54,979 nucleotides of DNA from an uncultured Gemmatimonadota bacterium (lineage in GTDB: Bacteria > Gemmatimonadota > Gemmatimonadetes > Longimicrobiales > Longimicrobiaceae): the NCBI GenBank assembly GCA_902805735.1, contig CADCTW010000102.1, positions 1 through 54,979 on the forward strand, given 5' to 3'. Below the pieces are notes generated by a model. The model made no database searches. It had not been told where the DNA came from and saw only the letters and a program-made list of their open reading frames with translations. Position numbers and translations under genes: made by a program. This document shows, one piece after another, positions 34,445-53,935 of this stretch (within the stretch, counting starts at the first letter, position 1; each line of letters starts with the position of its first letter).

Positions 34445-34561
34445 CCCCGCTGTTGAAGAATCCGCCTCGCGTGCCTATCTTGTGGCTCCCTCCCGGCGGT
34501 CTTCTTGCATCACCGTAATCCGCCAAGCTCCACCTCTCTCGCAGCTCTGCGCGGTACCCGT

Positions 34562-35593
34562 ATGACCCGAAAGCTTGCGCGCGCACTCGCCGCCGCCGCG
34601 ATCCTGGCGGTCACGGCCGCCGTCGTCCTCCGCGCCAGTGGCGGGGCGGTCGCCACCGAGTCCGCCCTCCCCGGCGGCCCCGCGTCCGCGGTGGGGGCGG
34701 CCTTCACCGCGCCGCTCAAGGATTCCGTGGTGGTGCCGCCCAAGCCCAAGCGGCAGATCATGGAGGGCGTGCAGGTGGTGGTCAACATCCCCAGCGGGCG
34801 GCTGGAGCTGATGCAGGGCGATTCGCTGGTCAAGAGCTACCCGGTGTCCGTGGGCTCGGCGCGCTACTCCACCCCCGTGGGCGACTACCTGCTCGCCACG
34901 GTGATCTGGAACCCCTGGTGGAACCCGCCGCCGGGGAGCGCGTGGGCCGCCAAGCGCAAGCGCACCCCTCCGGGCCCCGGCAACCCCATGGGCCGCGTCA
35001 AGCTGCACATGGACGAGCTGATCTACATCCACGGCACCACCAGCACGGGGCGGCTGGGCGCGCCCGCCTCGCACGGGTGCATCCGCATGTCCAACCGCGA
35101 CGTGGTGGACCTTGCCCGCCGCCTCAACGTCCTCGCCGACCCGGCGATGAGCGAGGCCGAGCTCGACCGCCTCTCGCGCGACGACCGCAGGACGCGCGAG
35201 ACGGTGCTGGCGCGCTCCGTTCGCATGCGCGTGATGTACAAGGTGGCGCGCGTCCGCGGCGAGAAGCTGCACGTGTACCCCGACGTCTACAATCGCGCCG
35301 GCGACTTCGCCGCCCAGGTACGCGCCGAGCTGGCCCGCGCCGGCCAGGACCCGTCCGAGGTGGACGCCGTCGCCATGCGCTACCTCCGCGACCGCGCCTA
35401 CGCCCGCGGCGGCGCCTCCTTTGCCCTCGCCGGCCTCTCCACCCTGCGCCCCCCCCGCCCCAAGCTCGACCTCGCCGAGCCGGCGGCCGCCCCGCCGGTG
35501 CTCGCGGAGATCGCGCGCCCGGACAGCGTCGCCGCGCCGGTCGCGGAGGCGACGGATACGGTGGCGGCGGTGACGGCGCCTGCGCAGCCGTAA
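34562..35593 (+). CDS. L,D-transpeptidase (YkuD domain)
   Basis: A protein of 343 residues with an N-terminal signal or membrane anchor (TRKLARALAAAAILAVTAAV). The YkuD domain spans about 65-200. It starts VQVVVNIPSGRLELMQGD, includes YSTPVGDYLLATV, and ends with the catalytic motif HGTTSTGRLGAPASHGCIRM, with active-site Cys near 172. Such enzymes make 3-3 cross-links in peptidoglycan or attach proteins to it. The C-terminal 140 residues are helical, then Pro/Ala-rich. The ATG at 34562 is preferred over an upstream one because it gives the signal peptide directly. A strong hairpin follows the gene, marking the left border of the defence island. Confidence 0.9.
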   Translation: MTRKLARALAAAAILAVTAAVVLRASGGAVATESALPGGPASAVGAAFTAPLKDSVVVPPKPKRQIMEGVQVVVNIPSGRLELMQGDSLVKSYPVSVGSARYSTPVGDYLLATVIWNPWWNPPPGSAWAAKRKRTPPGPGNPMGRVKLHMDELIYIHGTTSTGRLGAPASHGCIRMSNRDVVDLARRLNVLADPAMSEAELDRLSRDDRRTRETVLARSVRMRVMYKVARVRGEKLHVYPDVYNRAGDFAAQVRAELARAGQDPSEVDAVAMRYLRDRAYARGGASFALAGLSTLRPPRPKLDLAEPAAAPPVLAEIARPDSVAAPVAEATDTVAAVTAPAQP

Positions 35594-35617
35594 GCGACGC
35601 GGCGGCGGAATGTATAC

Positions 35618-35647
35618 GGCCCCCAACCCAGCGGCGGGTTGGGGGCC
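35618..35647 (+). terminator. Intrinsic-type terminator after the L,D-transpeptidase gene
   Basis: A perfect 12-bp stem (GGCCCCCAACCC / GGGTTGGGGGCC) with a 6-base loop, followed by TTCTGCT. It starts 25 bases after the stop. The T-run is weak, but stem strength and position support termination. It may also serve the opposite-strand methyltransferase gene that ends at 35667. Confidence 0.75.
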
Positions 35648-35666
35648 TTCTGCTGGACGGCTGAGC

Positions 35667-36896
35667 TCACACAGCTTTAAGTTCGCGTCCTATCTCATGC
35701 CCATGCAGGAGGTCTCTACCGAGCCCATGACAGCGAATGTACTCTGCAATCCCCCAGGCCATTAGAGGAGGGACGGCATTCCCGATCTGGCGGAACCGAT
35801 CTCCGATGTTCCCGAAGAACCTGAAGTCGTCAGGGAAGCTCTGCAGACGAGCAGCCTCCCGGATCGAAAGAGTGCGCGATTGCCCAGGATGGATATGAGA
35901 ATAACCGTCCTTTGCAAGGTGGGCGGTCACAGTCCACGAGGGACGCTCCCAGTAGAGACGTCGGTACTTGTCTTTGAAGATATCGTCCCGGTACCGTTTA
36001 AATCGCGCATCTAAGTCCACGTAGAGCATGCCTTCGCTCATCGTGGAGAATGCCTCGAGATCCTGCTCGTTGTGCACGCGCGTGACGTGATCCGTCACCT
36101 GTTTCGGATTGCACCCCTGGCGCATCAGCCGGGCATAACCTGAGGGCCGGCCCACCTTGCGGTGGTAAATCATTGGGTCTTCGGACGCCCCGTGCTCGAT
36201 CGGCGGCAGATCGGCGATCGCGTCACGTACGGTAGTCCCGCTCCCAAGTCCCAATCTCCGCCGGAATCGCCCCGCGAAAGACCTTATCCTTGTGATATCG
36301 AAGTCGAATCCCGAGCCTCGCCGGACGCCGAGGAAAATCAGGCGTTCTCGATCCTGTGGGACGCCAAACCAGCGGGCATTCACGACCTGATACGTGCAGG
36401 TGTAGCCCAGATCCTCAATGTTCTTAGCAACGGCCTGGGCGATGTTAACACCTTCAATCGAGAGCATTCCCGGTACGTTCTCCATTACGCACACCGGGGC
36501 CTCGAAATGCTCTACGTACTCAAGAAAGCGGCGATAGAGCTGATTCCTCGGATCGTTGAGCAACTCGGTCGCGACCCCGCGGATAGAGCGTATCTTCCCG
36601 CGGCCGGCACGTGACCACCCCTGGCACGGCGGTCCTCCTACAACGGCGAAAGGCGTACGATCGCTTGCCGGCAGCAGCCCACCCAGCTCCTGGGGGGTAA
36701 ATGTGCTGAGGTCTCTCTTTAGCGTGAGCCCATGGGCATCCCCGAAATTCCACTCGTGAGACCGGAGAGCGGGCACATCCGAATCGAGCGATGCGACGGG
36801 GCGAAAACCAGCCCGTGACCAGCCCCAGGAGATCCCGCCCGCACCACAGAACAAATCGAGAAAGCCCCGTCCCTCAGGGGTAGCGCGTTGCGCCAT
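35667..36896 (-). CDS. DNA (cytosine-5) methyltransferase 1
   Basis: A 409-residue enzyme that would methylate C5 of cytosine in a specific DNA site. Motifs in order: I FLDLFCGAGGISWG (12-25); IV VVGGPPCQGWS with catalytic Cys91; VI ENVPGM; VIII PQDRERLIFLG; a target-recognition region of roughly 150 residues; IX (LSIREAARLQSFPDDF); and X QIGNAVPPLMAWGIA. Length is normal for a single-domain enzyme. It is last in the minus arm of the island, 238 bases after the AIPR gene, so it may have its own promoter; a small palindrome lies in that gap at 37053-37070. Its target-recognition region is unlike that of the second methyltransferase, so the two should modify different sites. Confidence 0.93.
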   Translation of the reverse strand: MAQRATPEGRGFLDLFCGAGGISWGWSRAGFRPVASLDSDVPALRSHEWNFGDAHGLTLKRDLSTFTPQELGGLLPASDRTPFAVVGGPPCQGWSRAGRGKIRSIRGVATELLNDPRNQLYRRFLEYVEHFEAPVCVMENVPGMLSIEGVNIAQAVAKNIEDLGYTCTYQVVNARWFGVPQDRERLIFLGVRRGSGFDFDITRIRSFAGRFRRRLGLGSGTTVRDAIADLPPIEHGASEDPMIYHRKVGRPSGYARLMRQGCNPKQVTDHVTRVHNEQDLEAFSTMSEGMLYVDLDARFKRYRDDIFKDKYRRLYWERPSWTVTAHLAKDGYSHIHPGQSRTLSIREAARLQSFPDDFRFFGNIGDRFRQIGNAVPPLMAWGIAEYIRCHGLGRDLLHGHEIGRELKAV

Positions 36897-37052
36897 CAGT
36901 CTCCTGTCGCTGATCTATAAACCGAAGGGCGCGATGCGGCATCGGAACGGGCCCAAAGCTACCAGGTGCCGGCAGGTCTGTCCAGGCCAGCGACACCATA
37001 GAAACTACCGGTTTCTTCGGCAAGCCGAAGGGGAGTCCGGAGGACGGAAAAT

Positions 37053-37070
37053 ACGTCAGGTGTCTGACGT
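37053..37070. promoter_or_regulatory. Small perfect palindrome upstream of methyltransferase 1
   Basis: ACGTCAG-GTGT-CTGACGT, with 7-base perfect arms, about 160 bases upstream of the methyltransferase start, in the only sizeable gap of the minus arm. It could be an operator or a hairpin after the AIPR gene. No controller-protein gene is visible. Confidence 0.3.
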
Positions 37071-37134
37071 CGGCACGGGTCAGATCCCCGAGCTATGGTC
37101 GTCCGAACGTGGCGCGATTCGCTCCGCCGCTCGT

Positions 37135-38922
37135 TCATACCAGTGCTCGAACGCCCGGGAGTGCGGCTTTGAGCTCTTTCATCGCTTTCCAGCACTCCTC
37201 CCGCTTGCACCATTCAGTCACGTTGCGGCCGGCAGCGGTGCCAATGATCTGGCTGTAGACCAACGGCGCCCACGCTTGGAGGATCTCCTCCAGCGCCAAC
37301 GGGGTGGACTGAGCTTCCCAAACCGCGTCCAGTGATATGTCGTCCCCAAAACGAAAAGCAGTGTACGCTAGGGTATACGCAACCGTATTGGCACGGTAGC
37401 CAGGATACCCCTGGGCCCGTACGATCTGTTCGGTTCTCTTGAACAGAATGGCCTGAGCCACGACCTGCCGGTAGAACGCCGAATCGGGTATGAAGCCGGG
37501 CCCATATCGATCTTTGAGCGTGTCCATAAACGAGACGAAGTTCTTCTGTCCGCCACGGCTGACGATGTGTGGCTTTTGTCCCCAGGCATTCAGGTACTTC
37601 GCAAGATCTGTTTTAGTGAAACGCTGTGACGGGGGGATCTGCTGATCAAACATGCGCCGCCGCGATGGGGTCGGGGCCTGCCTCGCCCGTTCCACTTCGT
37701 ACTGCCCGCGGGCGCGCTCGTAAAACCATTTGCTCTGCTCTCCTGGAACCCACTGATACAACGAGAGTCGCTCCAGCTCGATATGAAATTCGTGGTTCGC
37801 CGAGAAGTCGGCTACCTGCACAGCATTCTGGGTATTGGAGAACTGAGAGATCAGCGGAACCATTCGCTCCGAATCAGAACCCTGCAGCACCGTAAGCTTC
37901 GCCTGGACAAAAATCCTGGAGATGTCGGTCCTGTCTACGACCTTTGCGCGGTGAATGGAAGCTGTGGTCTGTCCTCCGTTGACGATCTGTAGCCCCCTGA
38001 CCCAGGTGAGCAGGTGCCGCCCCTCAGATCGACGTACGCGGATCTCCACCGCCGTCATCGACAGTCCGTTGTTGTACGGGAAGAACTTGCCGGGCTCATT
38101 GCGGATTGTGTCACGGATACCGCGGTTAACCTTTCCCCGCGCCTGCAGGAACGATCTCACATTTAACTCAAGCAGGCGTGAACCATGACGGTCGTACAGC
38201 TGATACAGGACGTCTGCTGGAAGTGCAAAAAGGTACGCAACATAGCCCTCTTCGCCGCTAGGTACCGGAAGGCATGGGATTGCCTGTCCACACTCTGCCT
38301 CAAAATCGATCTCCACAGCTTCGTGGGCCATTGTAGACCCGAGCGAGCGAAAGAGTCGTTGTATGTCCCAGAAATGTACTTGGACCGTTACCCTCCGTCC
38401 TTCGACCCGCTCCACAGTCGGCGGGGGTTCATCCAGCCGTATCAACCCATCTGTAAGCACGAAGATCCTGACCTTCCGAACAGATGACTTTAGATCGTGT
38501 ATCGCACGGGCCATCTGAAATGCTTCCGACCCGGGTTCCATTGCGGCGTGTCGTCCCTCGAGAGACCCGCGCAAGAACCTCGTGGCGTGCTCGATTGCGT
38601 CATCGACTTCCTTCTTGCGAAGGGGTTCTGGGTGTTCGTGCTGCTGGAACGCGCACACGAACAGGTCCACCTGGTCACCTTCTTCGGAGAGCCCGTAACC
38701 ACTGGCTTTCACCCGGGCATTACCGAAAAACCCTGCATAGTGACACGGCTGCCCGTCCTCAATGACCCCAGTGTCGCCGAGGTCGTCAAGTACAAGCTCT
38801 ACAAAGACACTTTCCCGGAAATCTCCCGGAAGTTCTTCGCCCGTAACGGGATCATACCCGCCATGTGATCTCTCGATCACGCGGGCCATATACTCGGTGT
38901 GGAACTGTTCAACAGTCGGCAT
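37135..38922 (-). CDS. AIPR-family phage-resistance protein 1
   Basis: A 595-residue protein with the AIPR domain (abortive infection phage resistance, Pfam AIPR). Hallmarks are RLLELNVRSFLQARGKVNRG (about 247-266), FFPYNNGLSMTA and GLQIVNGGQTTASIHRA (near 311), then STNTQN-like FSNTQNAVQVADFSAN and WFYERARGQYE. The N-terminal 200 residues are predicted alpha/beta (VRIFVLTDGLIRL, HFWDIQRLF). The biochemical role of AIPR proteins is unsettled; they occur in abortive-infection and restriction-like loci. It is clearly paralogous to the product of 46902-48998 but lacks that protein's extra C-terminal 100 residues. It lies 110 bases after the glycosylase gene and is transcribed with it. The start at 38922 matches the N-terminus of the paralogue. 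Confidence 0.88.
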   Translation of the reverse strand: MPTVEQFHTEYMARVIERSHGGYDPVTGEELPGDFRESVFVELVLDDLGDTGVIEDGQPCHYAGFFGNARVKASGYGLSEEGDQVDLFVCAFQQHEHPEPLRKKEVDDAIEHATRFLRGSLEGRHAAMEPGSEAFQMARAIHDLKSSVRKVRIFVLTDGLIRLDEPPPTVERVEGRRVTVQVHFWDIQRLFRSLGSTMAHEAVEIDFEAECGQAIPCLPVPSGEEGYVAYLFALPADVLYQLYDRHGSRLLELNVRSFLQARGKVNRGIRDTIRNEPGKFFPYNNGLSMTAVEIRVRRSEGRHLLTWVRGLQIVNGGQTTASIHRAKVVDRTDISRIFVQAKLTVLQGSDSERMVPLISQFSNTQNAVQVADFSANHEFHIELERLSLYQWVPGEQSKWFYERARGQYEVERARQAPTPSRRRMFDQQIPPSQRFTKTDLAKYLNAWGQKPHIVSRGGQKNFVSFMDTLKDRYGPGFIPDSAFYRQVVAQAILFKRTEQIVRAQGYPGYRANTVAYTLAYTAFRFGDDISLDAVWEAQSTPLALEEILQAWAPLVYSQIIGTAAGRNVTEWCKREECWKAMKELKAALPGVRALV

Positions 38923-39032
38923 TTGCGATGGTGCTCAGACGAATAGGTGTTGACCAGCGAGCCCTGCCCCCAGAAGAACTGGAACGCATGTGCGCCCGAG
39001 AATTGAGACGAGATGGCACGGTGAGATTCCGA

Positions 39033-39740
39033 TTAAACGCGCGTCGTCTGCCTGCTCCGTCGGTCACGGGGTCTGCCGATCCGTGATGCGCCTGTCTGGC
39101 AGAACGGCAGCAGGGGGCAGACGTCGCATCGAGGCTCTCTGGGAGTACATACCGCGGCAGCGAGATCGAGCAGCGCGAAATTGAATTCACGGGGCCTCTC
39201 CGGGTCCACGAGCACCTGAAGAACCTTCTTGAAGCGTGGACTGCGACGAGACGAATCATTGACATGAACCCGGAACAATCTCCCGGTGACTCGGACGGTG
39301 TTCGTGTCGAGAATTGCCTCCGGCTCTGCAAAAGCAAAGCAGCGGACCGCGCCGGCGATATAATGCCCCACGCCTGGGAGCGACAGCAGGTCGTCCAGAT
39401 CGCGCGGGATCGTACCTCCGAATCGCTCCTGAATCGTCGCCGCCATCGCGTGCAGGAGGTCCACACGCCAACGCAAGCCTGCGGCGTGAAGAATCGTATG
39501 GAGCGCGTCCAGGGGGGCCGCGGCAAGAGACGGTATGTCCGGGTATCTCTCGAGAACGCTGAGATACAGGGGAACGACCTGGCTGGCACGGGTTCGATGG
39601 AGCAGCACTTCCGCTAGTAACACGGCATAAGGGTGCTGCGTCTCGCGCCACGGGAAATGTCTACCCTCCGCTGCTCCCCATTCAACCAGCGAATCCCGCA
39701 TACGTTGCCTGTCGAAGGAGTGCGCAAGCGGATCATTCAT
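39033..39740 (-). CDS. HhH-GPD DNA glycosylase, Mig-like T:G mismatch type
   Basis: A 235-residue member of the MutY/Nth superfamily. It has FPWRETQHPYAVLLAEVLLH (29-48; Glu44), the helix-hairpin-helix LPGVGHYIAGAV (121-132), ILDTNTVRV (Asp145), and a 4Fe-4S motif with Cys198, 205, 208 and 214 (C-x6-C-x2-C-x5-C). In the hairpin, Nth has a catalytic Lys and MutY a Ser, whereas this protein has Tyr127. That is the residue used by the archaeal thymine-DNA glycosylase Mig (Tyr126), which is likewise encoded beside a C5-methyltransferase restriction system. It also lacks the C-terminal 8-oxoG-recognition domain of MutY. It probably removes T from T:G pairs made by 5-methylcytosine deamination, doing the job of Vsr. 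The ATG overlaps the upstream methyltransferase stop by 8 bases (39733-39740). Confidence 0.87.
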   Translation of the reverse strand: MNDPLAHSFDRQRMRDSLVEWGAAEGRHFPWRETQHPYAVLLAEVLLHRTRASQVVPLYLSVLERYPDIPSLAAAPLDALHTILHAAGLRWRVDLLHAMAATIQERFGGTIPRDLDDLLSLPGVGHYIAGAVRCFAFAEPEAILDTNTVRVTGRLFRVHVNDSSRRSPRFKKVLQVLVDPERPREFNFALLDLAAAVCTPREPRCDVCPLLPFCQTGASRIGRPRDRRSRQTTRV

Positions 39741-40959
39741 CGGAACTGATGCCCCCGACTCCGCCCTCCAGCATCTCACGTACAACATGCGCGCATGCTT
39801 CCGAGAATACCGGGCTCACCACGTCAGCGACCATCTGGTAGCGTTTTGGCAGCGGGATCCCCTCGGGAAAATGGAAGTCCCTTGGAAAGCCCATGATACA
39901 GAGTAACTCACGAACGGACAGGATGCGCTCCTCGAACCCGGCCTCACCCGCTTCGGGATGCAGCACATACGTCTTTGTGACGTTGCCGAAAGAGGGTGCG
40001 GGAGTATCATAAGCGAGACGGCGCCATCCGTACCGGCCAGTTCGGTACCGCTCCCGATATTTCTCAATTGTGTTTAACTGCGGCCACGAGTGGTCACTCA
40101 CGCCATCGCGATCCACGTCGCGCAACCATTCGATCACATCCCTCACTGACGAGGGCTCCCGAAGCCGATCTGCGAGACGGGTAAAAAATCCGGTTGCCGC
40201 ATCGTTGGAACCACGTACTCCGACGGTGACCAGGCGCTGCCGTGCCGTGGAGGCCCCGAACTGATCGTACCTTACCACCATTGCGCGGATGCTGTACCGG
40301 GGATCTGCCCTGCGCAGGAGCTCACACTGCTGCTGGTATACGGCGTCCTGCCAAACCGGCGGGACATTCTCAAAGATGAAGATTCGCGGTCCAATGGCTT
40401 TCACGAAATCGAAGAAGCGGATGAGGAGTGGCTGATCCGCGTGATCCGCGCTTCGCCGCCGCTGGTTCATCAAGGACCACGGTCGGCATGGAGGTCCACC
40501 AATCAGTACGGTCGTGCCTTCCCCAACAGCGAGTACCTGTTCGTTGGAGTCCACCTGCGAAAGGTCGATCGTATATGCCGTGCCGATATCCCAACGTCGG
40601 AAGACCATCTGGGTCCACGGAATCCTATCCACCCCCACTACATCGAAACCAGCCCGGCTGAATCCTAACGAAAAGCCTCCCATCCCGGCGAACAGGTCGA
40701 GAACCCTAACCCGTTCACCACCAGAGTGCATTACGGCTCCCGTGCTCACAGCAGGAGGGAACTCCAGCGGAAAGAGCTCATTCGTATGCTGCACGCCAAC
40801 TGCAGCCACAAACTCGGAAAACCGGACCACCGACGGAATCAGGGACTCCGCTTCGTCAGCTCGCTCAACCGTGTCGCGATGGCTGTCGAACAAATCCATC
40901 TGCCGGACAGCACCTTCTTGTGAGTCTGGGATCTGGACGGCTGGCTCTGTGTTCTGCAT
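39733..40959 (-). CDS. DNA (cytosine-5) methyltransferase 2
   Basis: A C5-cytosine methyltransferase of 408 residues from the ATG chosen here. A GTG at 41085 would add 42 residues, and since TATGAT lies just upstream of it on the minus strand, the longer form cannot be excluded. The first 80 residues are unassigned. Then motif I VLDLFAGMGGFSLGFSRAGF (87-106), motif IV LIGGPPCRPWS with catalytic Cys158 (PCR rather than PCQ), motif VI FENVPP, motif VIII STARQRLVTVG, and motifs IX-X (SVRELLCIMGFPRDF, YQMVADVVSPVFSEA). Motif X is atypical: VADVVSPVF in place of GNAVPP. It is first in the minus arm, divergent from the GHKL gene, and overlaps the glycosylase gene downstream. It is clearly distinct from methyltransferase 1. 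Confidence 0.88.
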   Translation of the reverse strand: MQNTEPAVQIPDSQEGAVRQMDLFDSHRDTVERADEAESLIPSVVRFSEFVAAVGVQHTNELFPLEFPPAVSTGAVMHSGGERVRVLDLFAGMGGFSLGFSRAGFDVVGVDRIPWTQMVFRRWDIGTAYTIDLSQVDSNEQVLAVGEGTTVLIGGPPCRPWSLMNQRRRSADHADQPLLIRFFDFVKAIGPRIFIFENVPPVWQDAVYQQQCELLRRADPRYSIRAMVVRYDQFGASTARQRLVTVGVRGSNDAATGFFTRLADRLREPSSVRDVIEWLRDVDRDGVSDHSWPQLNTIEKYRERYRTGRYGWRRLAYDTPAPSFGNVTKTYVLHPEAGEAGFEERILSVRELLCIMGFPRDFHFPEGIPLPKRYQMVADVVSPVFSEACAHVVREMLEGGVGGISSDE

Positions 40960-41439
40960 TTTGGATAGACGGATGGACTTCCGGAGGTGTTGAGAGTGGG
41001 ACCACACCGCTAGACGAGCACTCAGCCGCCAATCCCAATCATCTTCATTGGCGTCCTTTCCCACAATCCTGCGCCCTGTTGCCACTCATCTGATTCACGC
41101 CCTCGTGCATCATACTGATAACTGCAGTACGGGCGCGGAAGACGGAACACTCTGACAGGTGACCCGGTTTAGCCCCGGCCGCGGACGGTTGGAAGCTAAC
41201 ATCCTTGTCGATTTCGGCCCAGAGTGGTGGTGCCTGATCACATGAGCGTTTCGACGTACGGATTCGCTCCCCACGTACGGTAGCAGGTTGAAGGGGGTAA
41301 CGGCGCCCGCTGAACAAATCGCGCCTCCACAACGGTGCCGTTGCTTCGGGGGTGCGGCAGCGGACTTGAGAATCAATGGGAGTCGCCGAGCCGGCCATCG
41401 CTCCGGACGGGACACCCGCACGACAATGGGCACACATCC
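40960..41439. other. Divergent regulatory region of the defence island
   Basis: No gene apart from a possible 42-codon extension of methyltransferase 2 (to 41085). It must drive both arms. On the minus strand, TATGAT near 41107-41112 is a good -10 match without a clear -35. Two direct ACGTACGG repeats (41254-41261 and 41273-41280), 19 bases apart, could bind a regulator on one DNA face. The short frames here do not look coding. Confidence 0.45.
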
Positions 41440-42969
41440 GTGGCTGAAGCAGAACTCTTATACGATGACATAGCACCGCGGGCATCCGCGATGATCGAGT
41501 CGATGCGCGCCTACGGCTATTCGGTTCCAACCGCGATTGCCGACCTGGTGGACAACAGCATTGCGGCCCAAGCAACGCACGTCTGGCTGCAGTTTCACTG
41601 GTCAGGAGCGAACTCGTTCATCAGCGTCACGGATGACGGCGCAGGAATGAGCGAGGGACAGCTTCGGGATGCAATGCGACTGGGTAGTACCAGCCCTCTC
41701 CACGTACGCGATCCGAAGGACCTTGGGCGATTTGGGCTCGGGCTGAAAACGGCCTCCCTCTCGCAGTGCCGGCGGTTAACAGTCGCTTCGCGACAGTCAC
41801 CCGGAACGGATGCAGTCCGCCGCTGGGATCTGGACTTCCTCGCCAGGAACCCGGAACGTGGCTGGCACCTGCTGCGTCAGGCGCATCCTGGATCCGAGAC
41901 ACTCGCCCAGGTTCCGGCCCACCTTGATTCCGGTACGGTGGTGCTCTGGGAATGCATGGACCGGGTCGCAGGGGATACAACCGCCGACGACGCGAAGCGC
42001 CATCAGCAATTCCGGGACACGATGGACCGGGTCGAGGCCCATCTCGCCATGGTCTTCCACCGTTATCTAACCGGCCCGAAGGCACGCCTTCGCATCCTGG
42101 TCAACAATGCGCCGGTCAAGCCCTGGGACCCATTCGTCGAAACCCACCCGGCGACACAGGTGAGCCCCGAGGAGAAGTTCAACCTTGGCACAGGCAACGA
42201 GCCGGTCCGTATTCGAGGTTTTGTACTCCCGCACAAAGACAAAATGGGAGACGACCTCCACGCGATCACATCAGGGCCCGCAGGCTGGAATGCGCAGCAG
42301 GGGTTCTATGTCTATCGCAACGACCGCCTCATCGTGGCGGGAAGCTGGCTCGGCTTGGGCGATGGCCGCCCCTGGACAAAGGAAGAGCATTACAAGCTGG
42401 CCCGCATCAGCGTGGACATCCCGAACTCAATGGACCACCTCTGGCACCTGGACGTAAAGAAGTCGAGCGCACAGCCGCCGCCGCAGATCCGCGAGTGGCT
42501 CACCGTTAGGGCGAGGCGCATCCGTAGCGACGCCCGCGCGGTATTCGCGCACCGCGGGAGCTACGGCCAGCGAGCCGAGCGCCGGGAATATGCGCGTCCG
42601 TGGAAGCCGGTCCGCAGCAACGGTACGGTTGCGTACCGCATTGATCGGGAGCACCCGGTCATCGCTGCCCTGATCGCTTCGGTTTCCGGAACGATCAGGG
42701 CGGAGCTGGATGCGGCGCTGCGGATTTTGGAGGCAACCGTTCCCGTCGAGCAGATCTGGCTCGACACGGCCGAAACCCGGGATATTCCTGCAAGTCCGTT
42801 CCGGGAAGCCACGTCGCAGCAGATGCGCATCCTCGTGGAAACCTCTTACCACGCGATTCGCAGAAACCGAGGGCTGCCCCACACGGAAACCGTAGACCTC
42901 ATGCTTGGGCTTGAGGAGTTCGCGAATTCTGAGGCACGCGCCATCATCGGTACTCTTCCATCCAATTGA
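41440..42969 (+). CDS. GHKL ATPase of the MORC/paraMORC type
   Basis: A 509-residue protein from GTG 41440. The ATP-binding Bergerat fold is near the N-terminus: N box AIADLVDNSIAA (about 29-40), G1 VTDDGAGMSE (62-71) and G2 DLGRFGLGLKTASLSQ (94-109). An S5-like second domain follows (about 220-340, including GFYVYRNDRLIVAGSW), and the C-terminal 150 residues are helical. The layout matches the prokaryotic GHKL ATPases linked by comparative genomics (Iyer, Abhiman and Aravind 2008) to restriction-modification systems with superfamily 2 helicases and nucleases. It likely clamps or remodels DNA in an ATP-driven way. The frame is open to 41335, but that extension is unlike a protein start. The stop overlaps the Z1 gene start (TTGA, 42966-42969). 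Confidence 0.87.
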   Translation: MAEAELLYDDIAPRASAMIESMRAYGYSVPTAIADLVDNSIAAQATHVWLQFHWSGANSFISVTDDGAGMSEGQLRDAMRLGSTSPLHVRDPKDLGRFGLGLKTASLSQCRRLTVASRQSPGTDAVRRWDLDFLARNPERGWHLLRQAHPGSETLAQVPAHLDSGTVVLWECMDRVAGDTTADDAKRHQQFRDTMDRVEAHLAMVFHRYLTGPKARLRILVNNAPVKPWDPFVETHPATQVSPEEKFNLGTGNEPVRIRGFVLPHKDKMGDDLHAITSGPAGWNAQQGFYVYRNDRLIVAGSWLGLGDGRPWTKEEHYKLARISVDIPNSMDHLWHLDVKKSSAQPPPQIREWLTVRARRIRSDARAVFAHRGSYGQRAERREYARPWKPVRSNGTVAYRIDREHPVIAALIASVSGTIRAELDAALRILEATVPVEQIWLDTAETRDIPASPFREATSQQMRILVETSYHAIRRNRGLPHTETVDLMLGLEEFANSEARAIIGTLPSN

Positions 42970-45899
42970 CTATTTTGAACCAGAACTACAAAGCGGTTCG
43001 CACGGCGGCACAGATTCAGGTGCAGCTGAAGCTGAACGCGGGTACGACCTCTCTCGATTCCTCAGACATCCGCAACGCAGTCCTTCAGATGATCGCCGTG
43101 TTCCAGTGCGGTGACGTCGATGCGGACGCTGTGGTCGCTGACCTTGAGGCCTCCTTCCAGACCGTAATCGGCAAGGAACGCACTCTGTTCGGGGATCAGG
43201 AGGGTTACGAGCCCTGGCTCAAGAGCAAAAAAGCAGGCATAGACTGGAGATTCTGGTCACGCTACGAGCAGTACCTCCTTCAGGAGGTCGGCCTCGCCCC
43301 CGCCACTCTGGATCGGCTGGACGAAAGCACGGACCGCGTCGTCGATCTGCTGACTGATCCGACGCGTCCGGGCTCCTGGGATCGTCGTGGACTGGTTGTG
43401 GGACACGTACAGTCCGGTAAGACCGGACACTACATTGGTGTGATCTCCAAAGCCGCAGACGCTGGCTACAAGCTGATTGTAGTTCTGGCTGGTTTCCATA
43501 ACAGCCTCCGCAGCCAGACGCAGATCCGCATCGAAGAAGGGTTCCTCGGCTACGACCGTAGCGTGCCGCAGGGCATGCCGACGCGGGTTGGTGTCGGTAT
43601 CATCAACGATTCACCGAAGGCCAATACGATCACCACGCGGGCCGATAACGGGGACTTCCGCCGTCCTGTTGCTGAGAGCTTCAGCATCGCCCCCGGCGGT
43701 CCTCCCCTTGTATTCGTCATCAAGAAGAACGGCGGGGTGCTGAAGAACCTGCTGAAGTGGGTGCGATGGGCGGCAAACGCCCAGGATGAGCAGGGACGTC
43801 CGTACGTTCGCGATGTTCCACTCCTTGTTATCGACGACGAGGCGGATCAGGGCTCGGTCAACACGAAAAAGGGTGACATTGACACAGTTACTGGCACACC
43901 GGACCCGGATTTCGATCCTGCCGTTCTGAACGGGAGGATTCGGGAGTTGTTGCATCTGTTTGAGCAGAGCGCATACATCGGTTACACCGCGACGCCATTC
44001 GCGAACATCTTCATTCACGAGGAAGCAAAAACCGAGGACGAGGGGGAGGATCTTTTTCCCCGTAGTTTCATCGTCGCACTCCCTACTCCCTCCAACTACG
44101 TAGGACCGGGAAGGGTTTTCGGGTATGAGCCCGACGAAGGTCCGCCCGTACCCGGCCTGCCGATCGTACGCCTGGTGAAGGATCACGCCGCGACGCTCGA
44201 CCTAGACGAACGCCAGGGGTGGATCCCCCCCAAGCACACCCAGAACCATGTCCCTCAAGTGGAAGGAGAGGAAACTCTGCCGGAGTCGCTGACCGAGGCG
44301 ATTCGTGCGTTCGTACTCGTCTGCGCGTCTCGCCTCGCCCGGCAGCAGGGGAGCGCGCACAACTCGATGCTGGTACACGTCACCCGATTTACGGAAGTGC
44401 AGCGCCAGGTCACCGCACAGGTGAAAGCGGAACTCCGACAGGTTCAGCAGCGTCTGCGGCGCGGGGATGGAGACTCCCCTTATCAGATCCGGAAGGAGCT
44501 CCAGAAACTCTGGGAATCCGATTTCATTCCGACGACTGAACAGATCGTCGCCCAGGATCCCACGCAGGATCTACCGATCCACACGTGGGACGTGATCGAG
44601 CCGTTCCTGGAACAGGCTGCACAATCGATCAGCGTCCGCGAGATCAACGGGAAGGCGGGTGAGGTTCTGGACTACGTAAAGCACCAGAACACCGGACTGA
44701 ACGTAATTGCGATCGGTGGGGATAAGCTCTCTCGCGGTCTGACGCTCGAGGGTCTGTCGGTCAGCTATTTCCTGCGCGCCTCTCGTATGTATGACACCCT
44801 GATGCAAATGGGTCGGTGGTTCGGTTACCGGCCCGGATACCTGGATCTGTGCCGGCTCTACACGACACCGGACATGACCGAGTGGTTCTCACACATCGCT
44901 CGTGCCAGTGAAGAGCTCCGAGAGGACTTCGATCGCATGGCCCTGAGCGGCGGAACTCCTCTCGACTTCGGCCACCGTGTTCAGTCGCATCCGATGATGA
45001 TGGTCACGTCGCAGGTCAAAATGCGACATGGAACCACAATCAACGTGAGCTATCAGGGCGACATCAGCGAAACGATTAACTTCTGGCGCACCCGCCCGAA
45101 GCTTGAGCGTAACTGGAAGGCTGCCGAACTGCTGATCAGTACCGTGGAATCGGCCAGGAAGCTTCCCGTACTGCTGGGCGATCCGCCCCCGGTGAGCGGG
45201 ATCGGCGCCTGGCGCTGGGATGACGTGTCGGCGGATGCCGTGCTCGAGTTCCTGACCGCGTACCAGGAGCACGGGGCCTCAAAGAAGGTCAAGACTAAGC
45301 TGCTCGCCGACTACATCAGGGCGGAGCTCAAGCATGACCGGTTGGTGCGCTGGACCGTGATGATCGCGAGCGGCAACTCCCCTGAGCCTCCTCGTGAACT
45401 CGGCTCCGCGCGTTTCCGCCTCGTCGAGCGCAGCTGGCATCTCACGATGACCAGCGAGAGCAGCGCGCTTACGGAGAAGCAGCAGCTGATTGCCAGCGGT
45501 CAGTACCGTATCCGCCGGCTGGTGAGCCCTGCGGACGAGACGAGCGACCTTTCAGATCGCGAATGGGAGCACGCTCTGCAGCTCTCAAAAGCGGTCTGGG
45601 CGAAGGACCCTGAAAAGCGTGTAGAACCTGATCGTCCGGCGGGGCGTGACATCCGCCGAGTACGCACGCCTGACCGCGGCCTGCTGATGCTTTACCCACT
45701 CGACCCGACAGATCGGGACAAGATAACGGGTACGGACAAGGTGGAAACCGGAGCCCAGGACATCCCGGTGCTCGGCTTCGCGATCAGCTTCCCGTACGTC
45801 GATCCGGATAAGGCTTCGAAGGTTCAGTACGTCGTCGGCAATGTGTACTACAAGCAGGAGTTCGGTCAGTACGAAGGGGACGACGAGGTCGAGCCATGA
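42966..45899 (+). CDS. Z1-domain superfamily 2 ATPase/helicase-like motor
   Basis: A 977-residue protein starting at TTG 42966, which overlaps the GHKL stop by 4 bases. Motor motifs: Walker A GLVVGHVQSGKTGHYIG (about 140-156), Walker B LLVIDDEADQGS (near 288), YIGYTATPFANIF (near 341), the Z1-specific AIGGDKLSRGLTLEGLSVSY (near 580) and MGRWFGYRPGYLDLCRLY (near 615). Z1 domains are found in restriction-like systems; the best-studied is the H subunit of the ATP-dependent CglI restriction enzyme, where it acts as a DNA translocase-like motor. The C-terminal 300 residues are unassigned. Neighbours on both sides overlap by 4 bases, so all are translated as one cassette. It should convert ATP into movement or signalling towards the nuclease encoded next. 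Confidence 0.91.
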   Translation: MTILNQNYKAVRTAAQIQVQLKLNAGTTSLDSSDIRNAVLQMIAVFQCGDVDADAVVADLEASFQTVIGKERTLFGDQEGYEPWLKSKKAGIDWRFWSRYEQYLLQEVGLAPATLDRLDESTDRVVDLLTDPTRPGSWDRRGLVVGHVQSGKTGHYIGVISKAADAGYKLIVVLAGFHNSLRSQTQIRIEEGFLGYDRSVPQGMPTRVGVGIINDSPKANTITTRADNGDFRRPVAESFSIAPGGPPLVFVIKKNGGVLKNLLKWVRWAANAQDEQGRPYVRDVPLLVIDDEADQGSVNTKKGDIDTVTGTPDPDFDPAVLNGRIRELLHLFEQSAYIGYTATPFANIFIHEEAKTEDEGEDLFPRSFIVALPTPSNYVGPGRVFGYEPDEGPPVPGLPIVRLVKDHAATLDLDERQGWIPPKHTQNHVPQVEGEETLPESLTEAIRAFVLVCASRLARQQGSAHNSMLVHVTRFTEVQRQVTAQVKAELRQVQQRLRRGDGDSPYQIRKELQKLWESDFIPTTEQIVAQDPTQDLPIHTWDVIEPFLEQAAQSISVREINGKAGEVLDYVKHQNTGLNVIAIGGDKLSRGLTLEGLSVSYFLRASRMYDTLMQMGRWFGYRPGYLDLCRLYTTPDMTEWFSHIARASEELREDFDRMALSGGTPLDFGHRVQSHPMMMVTSQVKMRHGTTINVSYQGDISETINFWRTRPKLERNWKAAELLISTVESARKLPVLLGDPPPVSGIGAWRWDDVSADAVLEFLTAYQEHGASKKVKTKLLADYIRAELKHDRLVRWTVMIASGNSPEPPRELGSARFRLVERSWHLTMTSESSALTEKQQLIASGQYRIRRLVSPADETSDLSDREWEHALQLSKAVWAKDPEKRVEPDRPAGRDIRRVRTPDRGLLMLYPLDPTDRDKITGTDKVETGAQDIPVLGFAISFPYVDPDKASKVQYVVGNVYYKQEFGQYEGDDEVEP

Positions 45900-46912
45900 C
45901 CTCGGTGCGCGGGATCTGGGATCGTTTGCAGGTAGAGGGGGAGGGATCCGAAGGCTTTGTCCGCCTCAGGCACCCGGATGTACAGGCCTGTGCGGTTTAC
46001 GCCGCCCGCAGCCTCCCAAGTGGGCATGAGGCGTTGCTCCTCGAACTTCACACGGCGTCGTTGCCCGCGGATGCAGAGTTCCCTGAATCCGCGGGGATGA
46101 GCATCCATGCGGTTCCGCTTACCCCCGGTCGAAGCGGGCTGAGTAGGGTCCTGCTCACTCTCACTGATCAACGGTACCGGGACGTCTTCCAGACACTCGC
46201 AGAAGATGTCGTCCGGGGAATGCAGGGAGCAGCGGACGAGGGATCTGCCGTGCGCCTATTCATCAGCCGCGTGGCGAGATGGCAGGCCTTCCTGCGCGAG
46301 CACGGTTTCGAAGGCCTGTCAGAGGTAGCCCGGGTCGGACTGTATGGAGAACTCGACTTCTTACGCCGCGTGATCTCCGCCGGTCTCGACCCGGTTGCAG
46401 GCATTCGGGCGTGGAAGGGGTGCTTTCGCGTTCCGCATGACTTCCAGCTCGCACACGGAAGTGTGGAGATCAAAACCTCACGCGCGGCCACCCCGCACTG
46501 CTTCAAAGTGAGCAACGTCCAGCAGCTAAACGAAGCGGGGGTACCCGCTCTGTTCGTCCACTTCATCTCCGTGGACCAGAGCGAAGCCGGTGGGGAGTCG
46601 CTTCCGGAGGCGGTTGAAGCAGTCCGTAGCCACTTGAATGACTTGGCAGTCGGTGCATTCTACGACTGCCTCACCGAGTGGGGCTATCTGGACGTTCATA
46701 GGGAGCGCTACGCCACACCACGGTACAGCGTGCGTAGCACCCGATGGTTTAGAGTGGGTAACGGCTTCCCGCGCCTGCCCCCGTTCGACTTACCGGAAGG
46801 CGTGGAGAACGTGTCTTACTCTGTCGCCCTTGCCGCCTGTGCCCCCTTCGAGTGGGATAGCGAGCTGGCCCTGAACACAGTACTTGGAGTTGACCCAACC
46901 TATGACGTATGA
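45896..46912 (+). CDS. PD-(D/E)XK-motif nuclease (DUF4420 type)
   Basis: A 338-residue predicted endonuclease. The ATG overlaps the Z1 stop as ATGA. Active-site candidates: Glu in VGLYGELDFLRRVI (about 151), Asp in PHDFQLAHGSVEIKTSRA (Asp181 approximately, then the ExK of VEIKTS near 190). This matches the PD-(D/E)XK motif proteins found next to Z1 and AIPR genes. The N-terminal 100 residues form a beta-rich domain of unknown role. In CglI and NgoAVII the cleaving subunit is a phospholipase-D-fold nuclease; here a PD-(D/E)XK nuclease appears to take that place. It is probably the effector that cuts unmodified DNA. The end overlaps the AIPR-2 start by 11 bases. Confidence 0.86.
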   Translation: MTSVRGIWDRLQVEGEGSEGFVRLRHPDVQACAVYAARSLPSGHEALLLELHTASLPADAEFPESAGMSIHAVPLTPGRSGLSRVLLTLTDQRYRDVFQTLAEDVVRGMQGAADEGSAVRLFISRVARWQAFLREHGFEGLSEVARVGLYGELDFLRRVISAGLDPVAGIRAWKGCFRVPHDFQLAHGSVEIKTSRAATPHCFKVSNVQQLNEAGVPALFVHFISVDQSEAGGESLPEAVEAVRSHLNDLAVGAFYDCLTEWGYLDVHRERYATPRYSVRSTRWFRVGNGFPRLPPFDLPEGVENVSYSVALAACAPFEWDSELALNTVLGVDPTYDV

Positions 46913-48998
46913 GCAGGACCGCTATCACGAGTACCTGAACGTACTCAGGTCTCGCGTGAATGAGCGTTCGACGGAGCTGATTGGCGCGGACGATGTGGCG
47001 AGCGTGGCGTTCCGCGAAGAGGCGTTCACGTCCGTCGTGGTTGATGTGCTGGAGGAACTTGGACAGATCGCATCAGCGCAGGTGTGCTACTTCGATCGCC
47101 GGGTCGGGCGCTCCGCGGCGAAGGTGAATGGCTGGAGCGTCGATGAGGAGAACGGTGAGATAGAGCTGATCACCACCCTTTTCCGGGGACTGGGCGAGCC
47201 AGGCTCAGTCACCGCCACCGAGCTATCGCATGCCGCCCACCGCGCTGTGCGCGTGTACGATGCTGCGCGTAACGGATACCATACGGGGATGGAACCGGCA
47301 TCGCAGACGTACGACATGATGCAACGGCTCCACCAGGTCTCGCCGGAGGTCACCCGCCTGCGGGTGATCGTGATTGCAGACGGCAACGCCCCGAATGGGA
47401 CCGTGCCGGACATCGCCGAAAAGGACTTGGAAGTCCGCACCGATGTTTGGGATCTTCAGCGGCTCTTTCGTGCCGACTCGTCAGGCGTCGCCTACGAACC
47501 GATCGAGATCGACCTCGAAGCTCGCCTCGGGGCTCCTCTCCCCTGCCTCGTGGCCACCGCAGACAGCCAGGACTATACGAGCTATTTGGCCGTCCTGTCC
47601 GGGGATCTCCTCCACTCACTTTATCACGATTTCGGGGCGCGCCTGCTCGAGCTGAATGTTCGCTCCTTCCTACAAGCGAAGGGAAAGGTCAACCGCGGCA
47701 TCCGTGATACGCTGACGAACAATCCCGGCAAGTTCATGGCGTACAACAATGGGATTTCCGCTACGGCCGAGCACGTCGAGCTTGTGCAGGACGCGGGTGG
47801 ACGTGCTTCGATCCGTAGCTTGACTGGTCTACAGATCGTAAATGGTGGTCAAACGATCGCCTCTGTGCACCGGGCAAAAGCTCGCGACCGCGTGGATCTT
47901 TCGGATGTGCATGTCCAGGCGAAAATCACCCTCGTACGCCCGGAGCATATCGAGACACTGGTGCCGGACATCAGCCGCTTCGCGAACACCCAGAACAAGG
48001 TGAACGAGGCCGACTTTTCGGCCAATCACCCATTCCATGTCCGAATCCAGCAACTCTCTCAGACGATCTGGGCTCCTGGAGAACAGACCCGGTGGTTCTA
48101 CGAGCGTGCCCGGGGTCAATACGAGGTCGCACGAACGAGGGAGGGAACCACGGAAGCTCGTCTGCGGAAATTTGATGCTGCAACGCCGGCACACCAGCGT
48201 TTCGGCAAAATTGACCTTGCGAAGTACCTGAACAGCTGGGATGCGCTTCCCCACACCGTCAGCCTCGGCAATCAGAAAAACTTTGTGGAGTTCATGCAGC
48301 GGCTCGGTCGTGTACATGGCAGGGATTGGGAACCCGGCGAAGCATACTACCGGAATCTGATCGCGGCCGGCATCGTATTCCGGCGCGTCGAGAAGATCGC
48401 GAGGAAGTACAAGTTCCCGGCATATCGCGCTAATGCGATCACCTACACCGTCGCTCTACTCTCCTACCGAACCGCTGGGCGCGTTGACCTCGACCGCATC
48501 TGGCTGGCACAGGACGTGTCAGCGGCCCTATCCGGCTGCCTCGACGAGTGGATGCCGCGAGTATATGACGAGATCGTCTCGTCGGCCAATGGTCGAAATG
48601 TCACTGAGTGGGCGAAGAAGCCTGATTGCTGGCGACAGCTCCAAACGCTCGACGTTTCCGTTCCGGATGCACTGGAATGCGAACTCGCCGCAGGGCAGGC
48701 ACTCCCGAACGTAGGTGCCCTGAGCGAACGGACCGGCGCGGGCCTCACCGCAACTGACCGGGAGCACATCGCGCGTGTGATGCAGATCGAGCCCGCTGAA
48801 TGGCTGCACCTCTGCGCATGGGGCGCCCAAACACAGGAGCTAAAGGAGTGGCAAACTGGGATCGCAGGGACCCTAGCTACTTACGCTGCGGCTGGGTGGG
48901 TGAAAGTGCCGTCAAAAAAGCAGGCATTCCAAGCTATTGAAATCCTCAGGATCGCTGACCAATGCGGAGGGAGGCTGCAGGATGAAGAGGTGGTTTGA
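46902..48998 (+). CDS. AIPR-family phage-resistance protein 2
   Basis: A 698-residue AIPR-domain protein, last large gene of the plus-strand cassette. It shares with AIPR 1 the blocks RLLELNVRSFLQAKGKVNRG, AYNNGISATA, GLQIVNGGQTIASVHRA (near 309), FANTQNKVNEADFSANHPFH, WFYERARGQYEVAR and KIDLAKYLNSW. It then adds about 100 C-terminal residues (after LECELAAGQALPNVGALSER) not present in AIPR 1. I take ATG 46902, since TTGGAG lies 12 bases upstream and the start matches AIPR 1; a TTG at 46884 would add six residues. Having two AIPR proteins, one in each arm, suggests they either pair or recognise different things. Confidence 0.88.
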   Translation: MTYEQDRYHEYLNVLRSRVNERSTELIGADDVASVAFREEAFTSVVVDVLEELGQIASAQVCYFDRRVGRSAAKVNGWSVDEENGEIELITTLFRGLGEPGSVTATELSHAAHRAVRVYDAARNGYHTGMEPASQTYDMMQRLHQVSPEVTRLRVIVIADGNAPNGTVPDIAEKDLEVRTDVWDLQRLFRADSSGVAYEPIEIDLEARLGAPLPCLVATADSQDYTSYLAVLSGDLLHSLYHDFGARLLELNVRSFLQAKGKVNRGIRDTLTNNPGKFMAYNNGISATAEHVELVQDAGGRASIRSLTGLQIVNGGQTIASVHRAKARDRVDLSDVHVQAKITLVRPEHIETLVPDISRFANTQNKVNEADFSANHPFHVRIQQLSQTIWAPGEQTRWFYERARGQYEVARTREGTTEARLRKFDAATPAHQRFGKIDLAKYLNSWDALPHTVSLGNQKNFVEFMQRLGRVHGRDWEPGEAYYRNLIAAGIVFRRVEKIARKYKFPAYRANAITYTVALLSYRTAGRVDLDRIWLAQDVSAALSGCLDEWMPRVYDEIVSSANGRNVTEWAKKPDCWRQLQTLDVSVPDALECELAAGQALPNVGALSERTGAGLTATDREHIARVMQIEPAEWLHLCAWGAQTQELKEWQTGIAGTLATYAAAGWVKVPSKKQAFQAIEILRIADQCGGRLQDEEVV

Positions 48999-49074
48999 GG
49001 GGATTGGGCTCACCGCAGAGTCCCTCGGATGTGCGCCCGAAGACGACACGTTTACCGAAACCGTGAGCCTTTAG
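48982..49074 (+). CDS. Possible 30-residue ORF at the island's right border
   Basis: This starts inside the end of AIPR 2 (overlap 17 bases) and reads MKRWFEGIGLTAESLGCAPE, then ten acidic/polar residues ending TVSL. The overlap style matches the coupled genes before it, and the sequence is not low-complexity. It may be a true tiny protein, or the start of a gene truncated when the island border formed. Nothing matches a family I know. Confidence 0.3.
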   Translation: MKRWFEGIGLTAESLGCAPEDDTFTETVSL

Positions 49075-49202
49075 CGATGTGAGCACCCCCCGCTCCGTTC
49101 AGCGTGGGATTGTACCGCATTCGCAAAACCCTGTCCCCCCGCCCCCGCACGCCCCTACATTGCGCGTACCCCCCGCCCCAGCCCACACCCCGCCTGACCC
49201 CC

Positions 49203-50324
49203 ATGCCCACACTGATCGGCGTACCGCGCGAGACCGCGCGCGGCGAGCGGCGCGTTGCACTGGTCCCGGAGGTGGTGGGGCGGCTGGTGATGCTGGGGTT
49301 CGGGGTGGTGGTGGAGGGCGGCGCGGGGATGGGGGCGTTCCACGGCGACGACGCGTACCGCGCGGCCGGGGCGCGCGTGGGGGAGCGCGCGGAGGCGCTG
49401 GGGGCGGACGTGGTGGCGTGCGTGGGCCCACCCGACGACCCGCAGCACCTCCGCGCGGAGGCGGCGCTGGTGGGGATGCTGCGGCCGCTGGACGACGCGG
49501 AGCGGATGCGGCGGCTGGCGCGCACGGGGGTGATGGCCATCGCGCTGGAGATGGTGCCGCGCATCAGCCGCGCGCAGAAGATGGACGCGCTCTCCGCCAT
49601 GGCCACCGTGGCCGGCTACCGCGCCGTGCTGCTGGCGGCCGAGGCGCTCCCGCGCTTCTTCCCCCTCCTCACCACGGCCGCGGGCACGGTGCGGCCGGCC
49701 AGGGTGCTGGTGCTGGGCGCCGGAGTCGCGGGGCTGCAGGCCATCGCCACCGCGCGCCGGCTGGGCGCGCAGGTGTCCGCGTACGACGTGCGCGCCGCCG
49801 CGGCCGAGGAGGCGCGCTCGCTGGGCGCCAGGTTCGTGGAGCTGGCGCTGGACACCGCGGGCACCGAGGGGGCCGGCGGGTACGCCGCGGCGCTGGACGA
49901 GGATCGCCAGCGGCGCCAGGTGGAGCTGCTGGGCGAGCACGTGGCCGCGTCGGACGTGGTGGTGTGCACGGCGCTGGTCCCCGGGCGGCGCGCGCCGCTG
50001 CTGGTGTCGGGCGAGGCGGTGCGGGCGATGGCGCCCGGCTCGGTGGTGGTGGACCTGGCCGCGCCCAACGGGGGGAACTGCGCCCTGACGCAGCCCGGCG
50101 CGTGGGTGCAGGCGGGGGGCGCGCGCGTGCTGGGCCCCCTCAACCTCCCCGCCGAGATGCCGATGCACGCCAGCGCGCTGTACGCCCGCACCCTGGCCGC
50201 CCTGGTCACCGAGTTCACCCGCGAGGGGCGCTTCGACCCCGACCCCGCGGACGAGATCTTCCGCGCCGCCTGCATCACCCGCGGCGGCGAGATCGTGCAC
50301 GAGCGCGTCCGCGCGCTCCCCTGA
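49203..50324 (+). CDS. pntAA: NAD(P) transhydrogenase alpha subunit, part 1 (NAD(H)-binding, dI)
   Basis: A 373-residue soluble component of the proton-pumping transhydrogenase, which transfers hydride from NADH to NADP+ using the proton gradient. The start MPTLIGVPRETARGERRVAL is the family signature. The nucleotide fold has VLVLGAGVAGLQAIATARRLGA (near 167-188), and GSVVVDLAAPNGGNCAL is conserved. The domain ends before any membrane segment, so the alpha subunit is split as in Rhodospirillum rubrum. The ATG at 49203 is chosen from the conserved start; the open frame to 49104 is Pro-rich. It begins 128 bases beyond the defence island and leads an operon with the next two genes. Confidence 0.94.
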   Translation: MPTLIGVPRETARGERRVALVPEVVGRLVMLGFGVVVEGGAGMGAFHGDDAYRAAGARVGERAEALGADVVACVGPPDDPQHLRAEAALVGMLRPLDDAERMRRLARTGVMAIALEMVPRISRAQKMDALSAMATVAGYRAVLLAAEALPRFFPLLTTAAGTVRPARVLVLGAGVAGLQAIATARRLGAQVSAYDVRAAAAEEARSLGARFVELALDTAGTEGAGGYAAALDEDRQRRQVELLGEHVAASDVVVCTALVPGRRAPLLVSGEAVRAMAPGSVVVDLAAPNGGNCALTQPGAWVQAGGARVLGPLNLPAEMPMHASALYARTLAALVTEFTREGRFDPDPADEIFRAACITRGGEIVHERVRALP

Positions 50325-52444: not shown

Positions 52445-53002
52445 GTGGTGAAAACGTCGCATGCCCGGGTACGGGTCGCCGCAGGCCCGGAGCTGTCGCT
52501 GCTGGGGAACCCGGCGCTGCTGGGGCAGCCGCTGATCGGGCTGCTGTGCTCGCGGCGGGTGCCGCCGGCGCTGGAGGAGCACGCGCTGGCGTGGGCCCGC
52601 TCCGCGCGCGACCTGCGCTTCCCGGTGGTGGGCGGGTTCCTGGCGCCGGTGGAGCGCCGGTGCCTGGAGATCCTGCTGGAGGGCACGCAGCCCGTGGTGG
52701 TGTGCCTGGCCCGCGGGCTGGCGGCCACGCGCATCCCGGTCCGCTGGCGCGCGCCCCTGGAACGGGGACGCCTCCTCCTCGCCACCCCGTTCGCCGACGA
52801 CGTGGCGCAGCTCAGCGCCCCCGGCGCCGCCCTCCGCAACCGCGTCGTCGCCACCCTGGCCGTCCAGCTCGTGGTGCCGCACGCCACCCGCGGCGGCCAG
52901 CTCATCCGCCTGGTGCGCGAGGTCGTCGCCGCGGGCAAGACCGTGCACTCGTTCGACCACCCCGCCAACCTGCCGCTGCTGCAGGCCGGCGCGCGGTTCT
53001 GA
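52445..53002 (+). CDS. DprA/SLOG-like Rossmann-fold protein
   Basis: A 185-residue protein related to the DNA-processing protein A (Smf) Rossmann domain. LLCSRRVPPALEEHALAWAR corresponds to the first strand and Ser-Arg motif, VVGGFLAPVERRCLEILLEG and VVVCLARGLAATRIP to the middle, LLLATPFADDVAQLSAPGAA and RNRVVATLAVQLVVPHATRG to the phosphate-binding end, and SFDHPANLPLLQAGARF to the terminus. It is shorter than DprA and lacks its C-terminal winged helix and the SAM-like N-terminus, so it belongs to the wider SLOG-type nucleotide- or DNA-binding group. GTG codons at 52445 and 52448 are both possible starts. The stop is 115 bases before the MntA gene. Confidence 0.7.
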   Translation: MVKTSHARVRVAAGPELSLLGNPALLGQPLIGLLCSRRVPPALEEHALAWARSARDLRFPVVGGFLAPVERRCLEILLEGTQPVVVCLARGLAATRIPVRWRAPLERGRLLLATPFADDVAQLSAPGAALRNRVVATLAVQLVVPHATRGGQLIRLVREVVAAGKTVHSFDHPANLPLLQAGARF

Positions 53003-53117
53003 AAGCGGAGCGGCGCCGGCGTGCAAGCTGCGGAGTTTGCTTACCCTTCTGCTTCATGTACCTTCGATGGGAGATATTGCGCCGAATCAGCCACACGACC
53101 CACGTCAGGAACTCCGC

Positions 53118-53757: not shown

Positions 53758-53786
53758 CTCCCGGTGCGCGGTTCTAACACCAATCT

Positions 53787-53840
53787 TACACAGAGGCACA
53801 GAGATGAAGTCGTCTCTGTGCCTCTGTGTCTCTGTGTGAC
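53787..53840. repeat. CACAGAG palindromic repeat, copy 4
   Basis: ACACAGAGGCACAGAG (left) and CTCTGTGCCTCTGTGT (right) pair exactly around a short loop containing ATGAAGT. The right arm extends further into CTCTGTGTGAC without a partner. It lies 30 bases after the hepT stop, a likely terminator position. Confidence 0.88.
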
Positions 53841-53935
53841 ACCGCTGTTTGGCGGGCGGGGGACCGCATCTTGCCGGTGAGTCGTTTCCTGCCGCGGCGG
53901 GCAACGGCCCGCGCATCCAACGCCCCGCGAAGAGC

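Follow-up and report, generated by a model that had tools for sequence, protein, structure and literature searches.

We found that positions 35667-48998 of the 54,979-nucleotide stretch analysed here (hereafter the window: contig CADCTW010000102.1, assembly GCA_902805735.1, from an uncultured Gemmatimonadota bacterium of the family Longimicrobiaceae) hold an island of eight genes in two divergent arms, which overall we read from its sequence, with a probability of roughly 0.68, as a variant of the MZA-like, methylation-linked phage defence systems. The core of the island, its plus arm, is ordinary for such systems; the combination of extras is new, and the unusual part is the minus arm, with a Mig-type glycosylase instead of Vsr, two methyltransferases and a second AIPR protein. 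A preliminary description of the same DNA had proposed this two-arm set, of seven to eight genes, with its two C5 methyltransferases, HhH glycosylase and second AIPR, and all eight genes are present, intact and placed in families by profile searches (Pfam, PADLOC and NCBIfam). Its less GC-rich block is likewise borne out: G+C is 0.57-0.62 per 1-kilobase (kb) segment across 36001-49000, as compared to 0.68-0.77 in the remaining segments except 53001-54000 (0.62). The genes and their boundaries are as follows.

35667-36896, minus strand: M1, C5 cytosine DNA methyltransferase, 409 amino acids (PF00145, 175.8 bits; GPPCQ motif)
37135-38922, minus strand: AIPRm, second MzaE/AIPR protein, 595 amino acids (PF10592, 317.5 bits; PF22879)
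39033-39740, minus strand: HhH-GPD glycosylase, 235 amino acids, Mig.MthI-type by residues
39733-41085, minus strand: M2, divergent C5 methyltransferase, 450 amino acids, start uncertain (PF00145, 108.9 bits)
41086-41439, no strand: intergenic region between the arms, likely promoter region as judged by gene layout
41440-42969, plus strand: MzaB-like GHKL (paraMORC/MutL-type) ATPase (PF13589, 98 bits)
42966-45899, plus strand: MzaC-like gene (PF10593, 281.2 bits)
45896-46912, plus strand: MzaD-like DUF4420 PD-(D/E)XK nuclease, 338 amino acids (PF14390, 223.1 bits)
46902-48998, plus strand: AIPRp, MzaE-like AIPR protein, frame open from 46884 (PF10592, 319.5 bits; PF22879)
34505-35593, plus strand: ykuD-like L,D-transpeptidase (PF03734), left boundary by synteny, outside the system
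49104-50324, plus strand: alanine dehydrogenase/PNT-type, pntA-like gene (PF01262/PF05222), right boundary by synteny, outside the system

The plus arm consists of homologues of MzaB, C, D and E as one overlapping run (41440-48998), in the same order as in mzaABCDE, a system whose original paper is reportedly that of Gao et al. in 2020. MZA models match every core protein (PADLOC scores of 453.5 bits for MzaB and 799.7 for MzaC), and the overlaps of 4-11 bases described earlier are there (B/C 4 bp, C/D 4 bp, D/E 11 bp if AIPRp starts at ATG 46902), although the last grows to 29 bp with a start at TTG 46884. For the GHKL gene, whose start had been put at 41335, homologue starts make GTG 41440 the most likely one in a frame open from 41335; the HhH gene was set to 39033-39740, overlapping M2 by 8 bp. 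The GHKL ATP-binding motif is kept, nine of its residues being invariant across all 24 aligned sequences; the superfamily II (SFII) helicase motif DThhQXuRhFG reads DTLMQMGRWFG in the window; and the nuclease retains E-D-ExK, with E152, D182, E191 and K193 invariant in 33/33. Together, MzaB, C and D resemble a motor that cuts DNA, their catalytic sites being intact. The restriction-like ATPase, motor and nuclease of the preliminary description, tied to C5 methylation, are present with catalytic residues kept, as predicted by Iyer, Abhiman and Aravind in 2008 (PMC2292703), whose paraMORC operons are defined by a GHKL ATPase, an SFII helicase and an E-D-ExK nuclease, all three found in the island, and share its C5 methylase. 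In the available part of that paper AIPR is named in a figure legend and Vsr is reported, with no mention of the HhH glycosylase that the island has.

That no characterised system has this full set, as had been supposed, was not borne out for the core, which is the BCDE module of mzaABCDE and of the putative Type II system of Miller et al. (2022); what remains unusual is the minus arm. The available portion of Miller et al. (PMC9523054) calls mzaABCDE validated and describes MzaA as a sigma factor; profile scans found no such factor among the eight island genes (other genes of the window were only partly scanned), and the island differs further in adding two C5 methyltransferases, a glycosylase and a second AIPR. 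For Type II, the same portion mentions no HhH glycosylase, doubled AIPR or doubled methyltransferase, ties repair endonucleases to Type I, and names a CW-type zinc-finger MORC of which none was found in the island, in a comparison by domain content rather than with their profiles. CglI and NgoAVII differ in having three genes only, another nuclease, no GHKL ATPase and no AIPR. The DISARM set consists of DrmA, DrmB and DrmC with DrmMII; M1 and M2 match DrmMII models (among the best 25 of 61 and the best 25 of 54 PADLOC families, respectively), and the other six genes match no Drm model in PADLOC.

The gene content recurs far beyond chance. Among 64 full loci (at least 6 kb of context on each side, window included; 88 loci in the wider survey), MzaB and DUF4420 were each found in 62, AIPR in 61 and a C5 methyltransferase in all 64; rather than failing to co-occur elsewhere, the outcome that would have told against the preliminary description, BCDE recurs across many phyla. 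In up to 35 of the 88 loci, a sigma-70/ankyrin-repeat, MzaA-like family, with a Pfam check of one member, is found close to the core; in many proteobacterial loci (e.g., L052:5760-8375) it directly precedes MzaB. In a Methanosarcina locus, AIPR is followed by a 721-amino-acid protein with two GHKL ATPase domains (L090:15846-18011), resembling the histidine-kinase-like paraMORC relatives in the available part of PMC8011034.

The minus arm carries two METHYLTRANSFERASES (M1 and M2), which resemble neither each other nor the enzyme of L027, the nearest core relative (28% identity). M1 has a target-recognition region of the DIFxDKYxRL...TAHxxKDG motif class, which occurs in MZA-like loci of actinobacteria and cyanobacteria as well; its placement in the tree is weak. 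M2 is an outlier, reading PCR in motif IV where PCQ is usual and scoring 311.9 bits against PADLOC model PDLC02655 (DrmMII); a single-sequence search found no close relative among viral contigs, and searches of plasmids and the phylum sample yielded nothing nearer than C5 methyltransferases ∼25-40% identical over long stretches. Methyltransferases of such loci appear to be exchanged on a nearly constant core. In 17 chosen locus pairs, compared over the stretch between motifs VIII and IX (TRD) and leaving out the second methyltransferase frame of L044, the TRD fell to 42% identity in L043/L044 (BCDE 92-95%), 41% in L070/L074 (86-93%), 24% in L070/L076 (79-89%) and 33% in L057/L058 (80-87%), the last pair differing also in that L058 has HhH and L057 neither HhH nor Vsr. 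The enzyme is retained in other close pairs (TRD 74% in L070/L071, 98% in L076/L077, 83% in L089/L113), and L057 and L080 have a common methyltransferase type (TRD 60%) despite cores just 27-41% alike. Such exchange would imply either that the swapped methyltransferases write the same mark or that the core reads no single fixed sequence.

Several actinobacterial MZA-like C5 methyltransferases (∼645-680 amino acids; L106:6037-8043, L091, L094, L105 and L116) carry a C-terminal HhH-glycosylase-like region, with weaker matches in five further loci. The catalytic Asp and the Tyr are lost in the five aligned, and Vsr is also present in 9/10 such loci; the region may be an inactive glycosylase that now serves to recognise mismatches.

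The two AIPR proteins are 44-45% identical. AIPRp clusters with L027 and three marine gammaproteobacterial sequences with 99% support, and AIPRm is not a recent copy, because it forms a long separate branch inside no well-supported group, which rules out recent duplication. Relatives of AIPRm were matched in 10 of 395 phylum-sample genomes; only the strong matches were examined (weak ones being G008, G009 and G277), and the six outside its own genome (G067, G098, G107, G297, G304 and G385) are AIPRs of MZA-like loci, while an AIPRm-M1 pair could still exist elsewhere. A second AIPR of ∼900 amino acids with two AIPR_N stretches adjoins the normal one in Massilia (L055:15400-18198) and Burkholderiaceae (L056:14472-17123), and the AIPR pair of L095 resembles, by its lengths, one split gene.

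The AIPR family has been described in print as HEPN, is named for abortive infection and has been connected there to restriction loci. An all-helical HEPN protein was rejected, as the N-terminal domain of our AlphaFold2 model (whole-protein pLDDT 89.0) is instead alpha/beta in order. Position 94 is Asp in 62/68 and Glu in 2/68, including AIPRp, but without an ExK the domain shows no evident active PD-(D/E)XK site. In the core domain, N, G, Q and T of the motif NGxQT are invariant. Among the best 50 of 592 PDB matches to this domain, ParB-N (5k5d) is the sole one of high probability (0.75; E 0.15, TM 0.28-0.31). By hhalign, NGGQT falls on DGQQR of DUF262 and DGQHR of DndB (E 0.12 and 0.095, probability <1%; E 0.29-0.61 in six control comparisons); with the whole AIPR alignment the DUF262 match reaches E 0.041, and DndB matches best at another place. 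The AIPR core is possibly ParB-like, a ParB-like switch being a lead and not a result.

The HhH protein probably repairs mutations arising from the methylation marks. Like Mig.MthI, the T:G glycosylase of Methanobacterium, which is small, one-domain and linked to 5-methylcytosine (5mC) deamination, it has Ala, Tyr and Asp at key positions, although it belongs to an eight-gene motor system. All six stand-alone HhH proteins surveyed have Ala where MutY has V45, as Mig.MthI does at A50; they keep equivalents of Mig Tyr126 and catalytic Asp144 and lack MutY Gln182 (Phe in five, Asn in one). The methyltransferase adjoins the HhH gene in four of the six (window, L058, L064 and L090) and is separated in L066 and L072; on plasmids, a small HhH gene lies adjoining or within ∼0.6 kb of a C5 methyltransferase in 3/4 chosen records. 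Vsr, found in 64/88 loci, occurs in none of the six. We found no paper connecting Mig.MthI with restriction systems, which is no proof of absence. The protein could instead be a duplicate MutY for 8-oxoguanine damage that hitch-hikes in the island, and indeed the window protein alone scores higher with MutY (153.4 bits) than with Mig (122.9) in the PDB, and its best NCBIfam match is TIGR01084 mutY (180.3 bits, cut-off 286.5). A duplicate is nevertheless quite improbable: besides the loss of V45 and Q182, the 235-residue protein has no C-terminal 8-oxoguanine domain, the six-sequence profile prefers Mig.MthI (1kea, 214.0 bits; best MutY 193.8), and among the other HhH genes of the host one is MutY-like, with Val and Gln at these positions.

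Under the MZA-like reading, M1 and M2 would place 5mC marks on host DNA and methylation would license the BCDE core, which would translocate on and cut DNA; the HhH glycosylase would repair T:G and AIPR would act as a switch. The 5mC self-marking and the abortive action put forward in the preliminary description remain inferences. Alternatively, the island may combine two separate systems, one of BCDE and a single methyltransferase, the other an unrelated or decaying pair of M1 and AIPRm from another restriction locus. The ancient divergence of AIPRm from AIPRp and the unlikeness of M1 and M2 to each other and to the L027 enzyme suit this arrangement, which we consider doubtful though worth entertaining, as all four genes of the minus arm are intact and share a strand, M2 and HhH overlap, and two full AIPRs beside a single core set, the second copy with a doubled N-terminal domain, also occur in L055 and L056. 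One could also suppose that BCDE responds to a phage event by killing or arresting the cell, and that the role of the methyltransferases is to keep this toxic machine quiet, not to discriminate phage DNA by sequence. The name of AIPR and its ties to restriction loci, together with the swapping of methyltransferases in several lineages over a little-changed BCDE, would accord with such abortive defence; it is unlikely given the resemblance of MzaB, C and D to a DNA-cutting motor, the lack of any toxin family among profile matches of the island proteins, and the modelled alpha/beta domain.

Several observations weigh against the MZA-like reading itself. None of the four NCBIfam equivalog cut-offs for MzaB-E is reached (MzaB 550.1 against 850, MzaC 910.4 against 1500, MzaD 170.9 against 420, and MzaE 476.5 and, for AIPRm, 507.7 against 1050), the whole-protein AIPR model has no significant match in the PDB (MspJI probability 0.38, HamA 0.30), and methyltransferase swaps on a constant core misfit a core with fixed recognition, unless the marks are identical. 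As for repair, Mig L187 is replaced by Phe in 5/6 HhH proteins, the window's included, and by Asn in 1/6; the single-sequence score favours MutY; published residue swaps in MutY gave no T:G activity; the mutual exclusion of HhH and Vsr is not significant after allowing for kinship (3 independent contrasts, 0 the same way, 1-2 opposite); and 9/64 full loci have neither.

How MZA-like systems discriminate self from non-self is left unexplained in the available parts of the literature. We tentatively propose, with low confidence, that BCDE is an engine without a fixed recognition sequence, licensed by any dense C5 marking, with each methyltransferase and its mismatch-repair partner (Vsr or Mig-type HhH) as plug-in cassettes and extra AIPR-methyltransferase pairs widening or backing up the licence; if true, the window would be a stacked case, one engine being served by two AIPRs and by two methyltransferases that are unrelated to each other. 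Three questions arise from the locus and its relatives: does the core require one methylated sequence or accept any 5mC as its licence, is the mark read by AIPR, and, in loci that lack Vsr, does a Mig-type glycosylase make good the mutations that the marks cause? With its additional cassettes and methyltransferases that behave as plug-ins, the locus merits testing.

The island sits between ykuD-like and pntA-like genes, and this interval (35594-49103) holds different cargo in three sister species (that of the window, and G005 and G006 with loci L131, L132 and L134), in a comparison without G008, whose contig ends too early. In G005 it comprises ∼18.7 kb of other DNA (G+C 0.58-0.69 by kb), with adenylosuccinate-synthetase-like and dCTP-deaminase-like genes and only pieces of pnt matching; in G006, read across a contig break inside ykuD, it is ∼5.5 kb with an HNH gene matching type IV restriction models. 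Both have a NUDIX gene matching PADLOC PDC-S07, and the interval fits a variable defence site. A second low-G+C spot (53037-53757) contains two short open reading frames whose translations resemble, by eye, an MNT nucleotidyltransferase and HEPN toxin-antitoxin pair.
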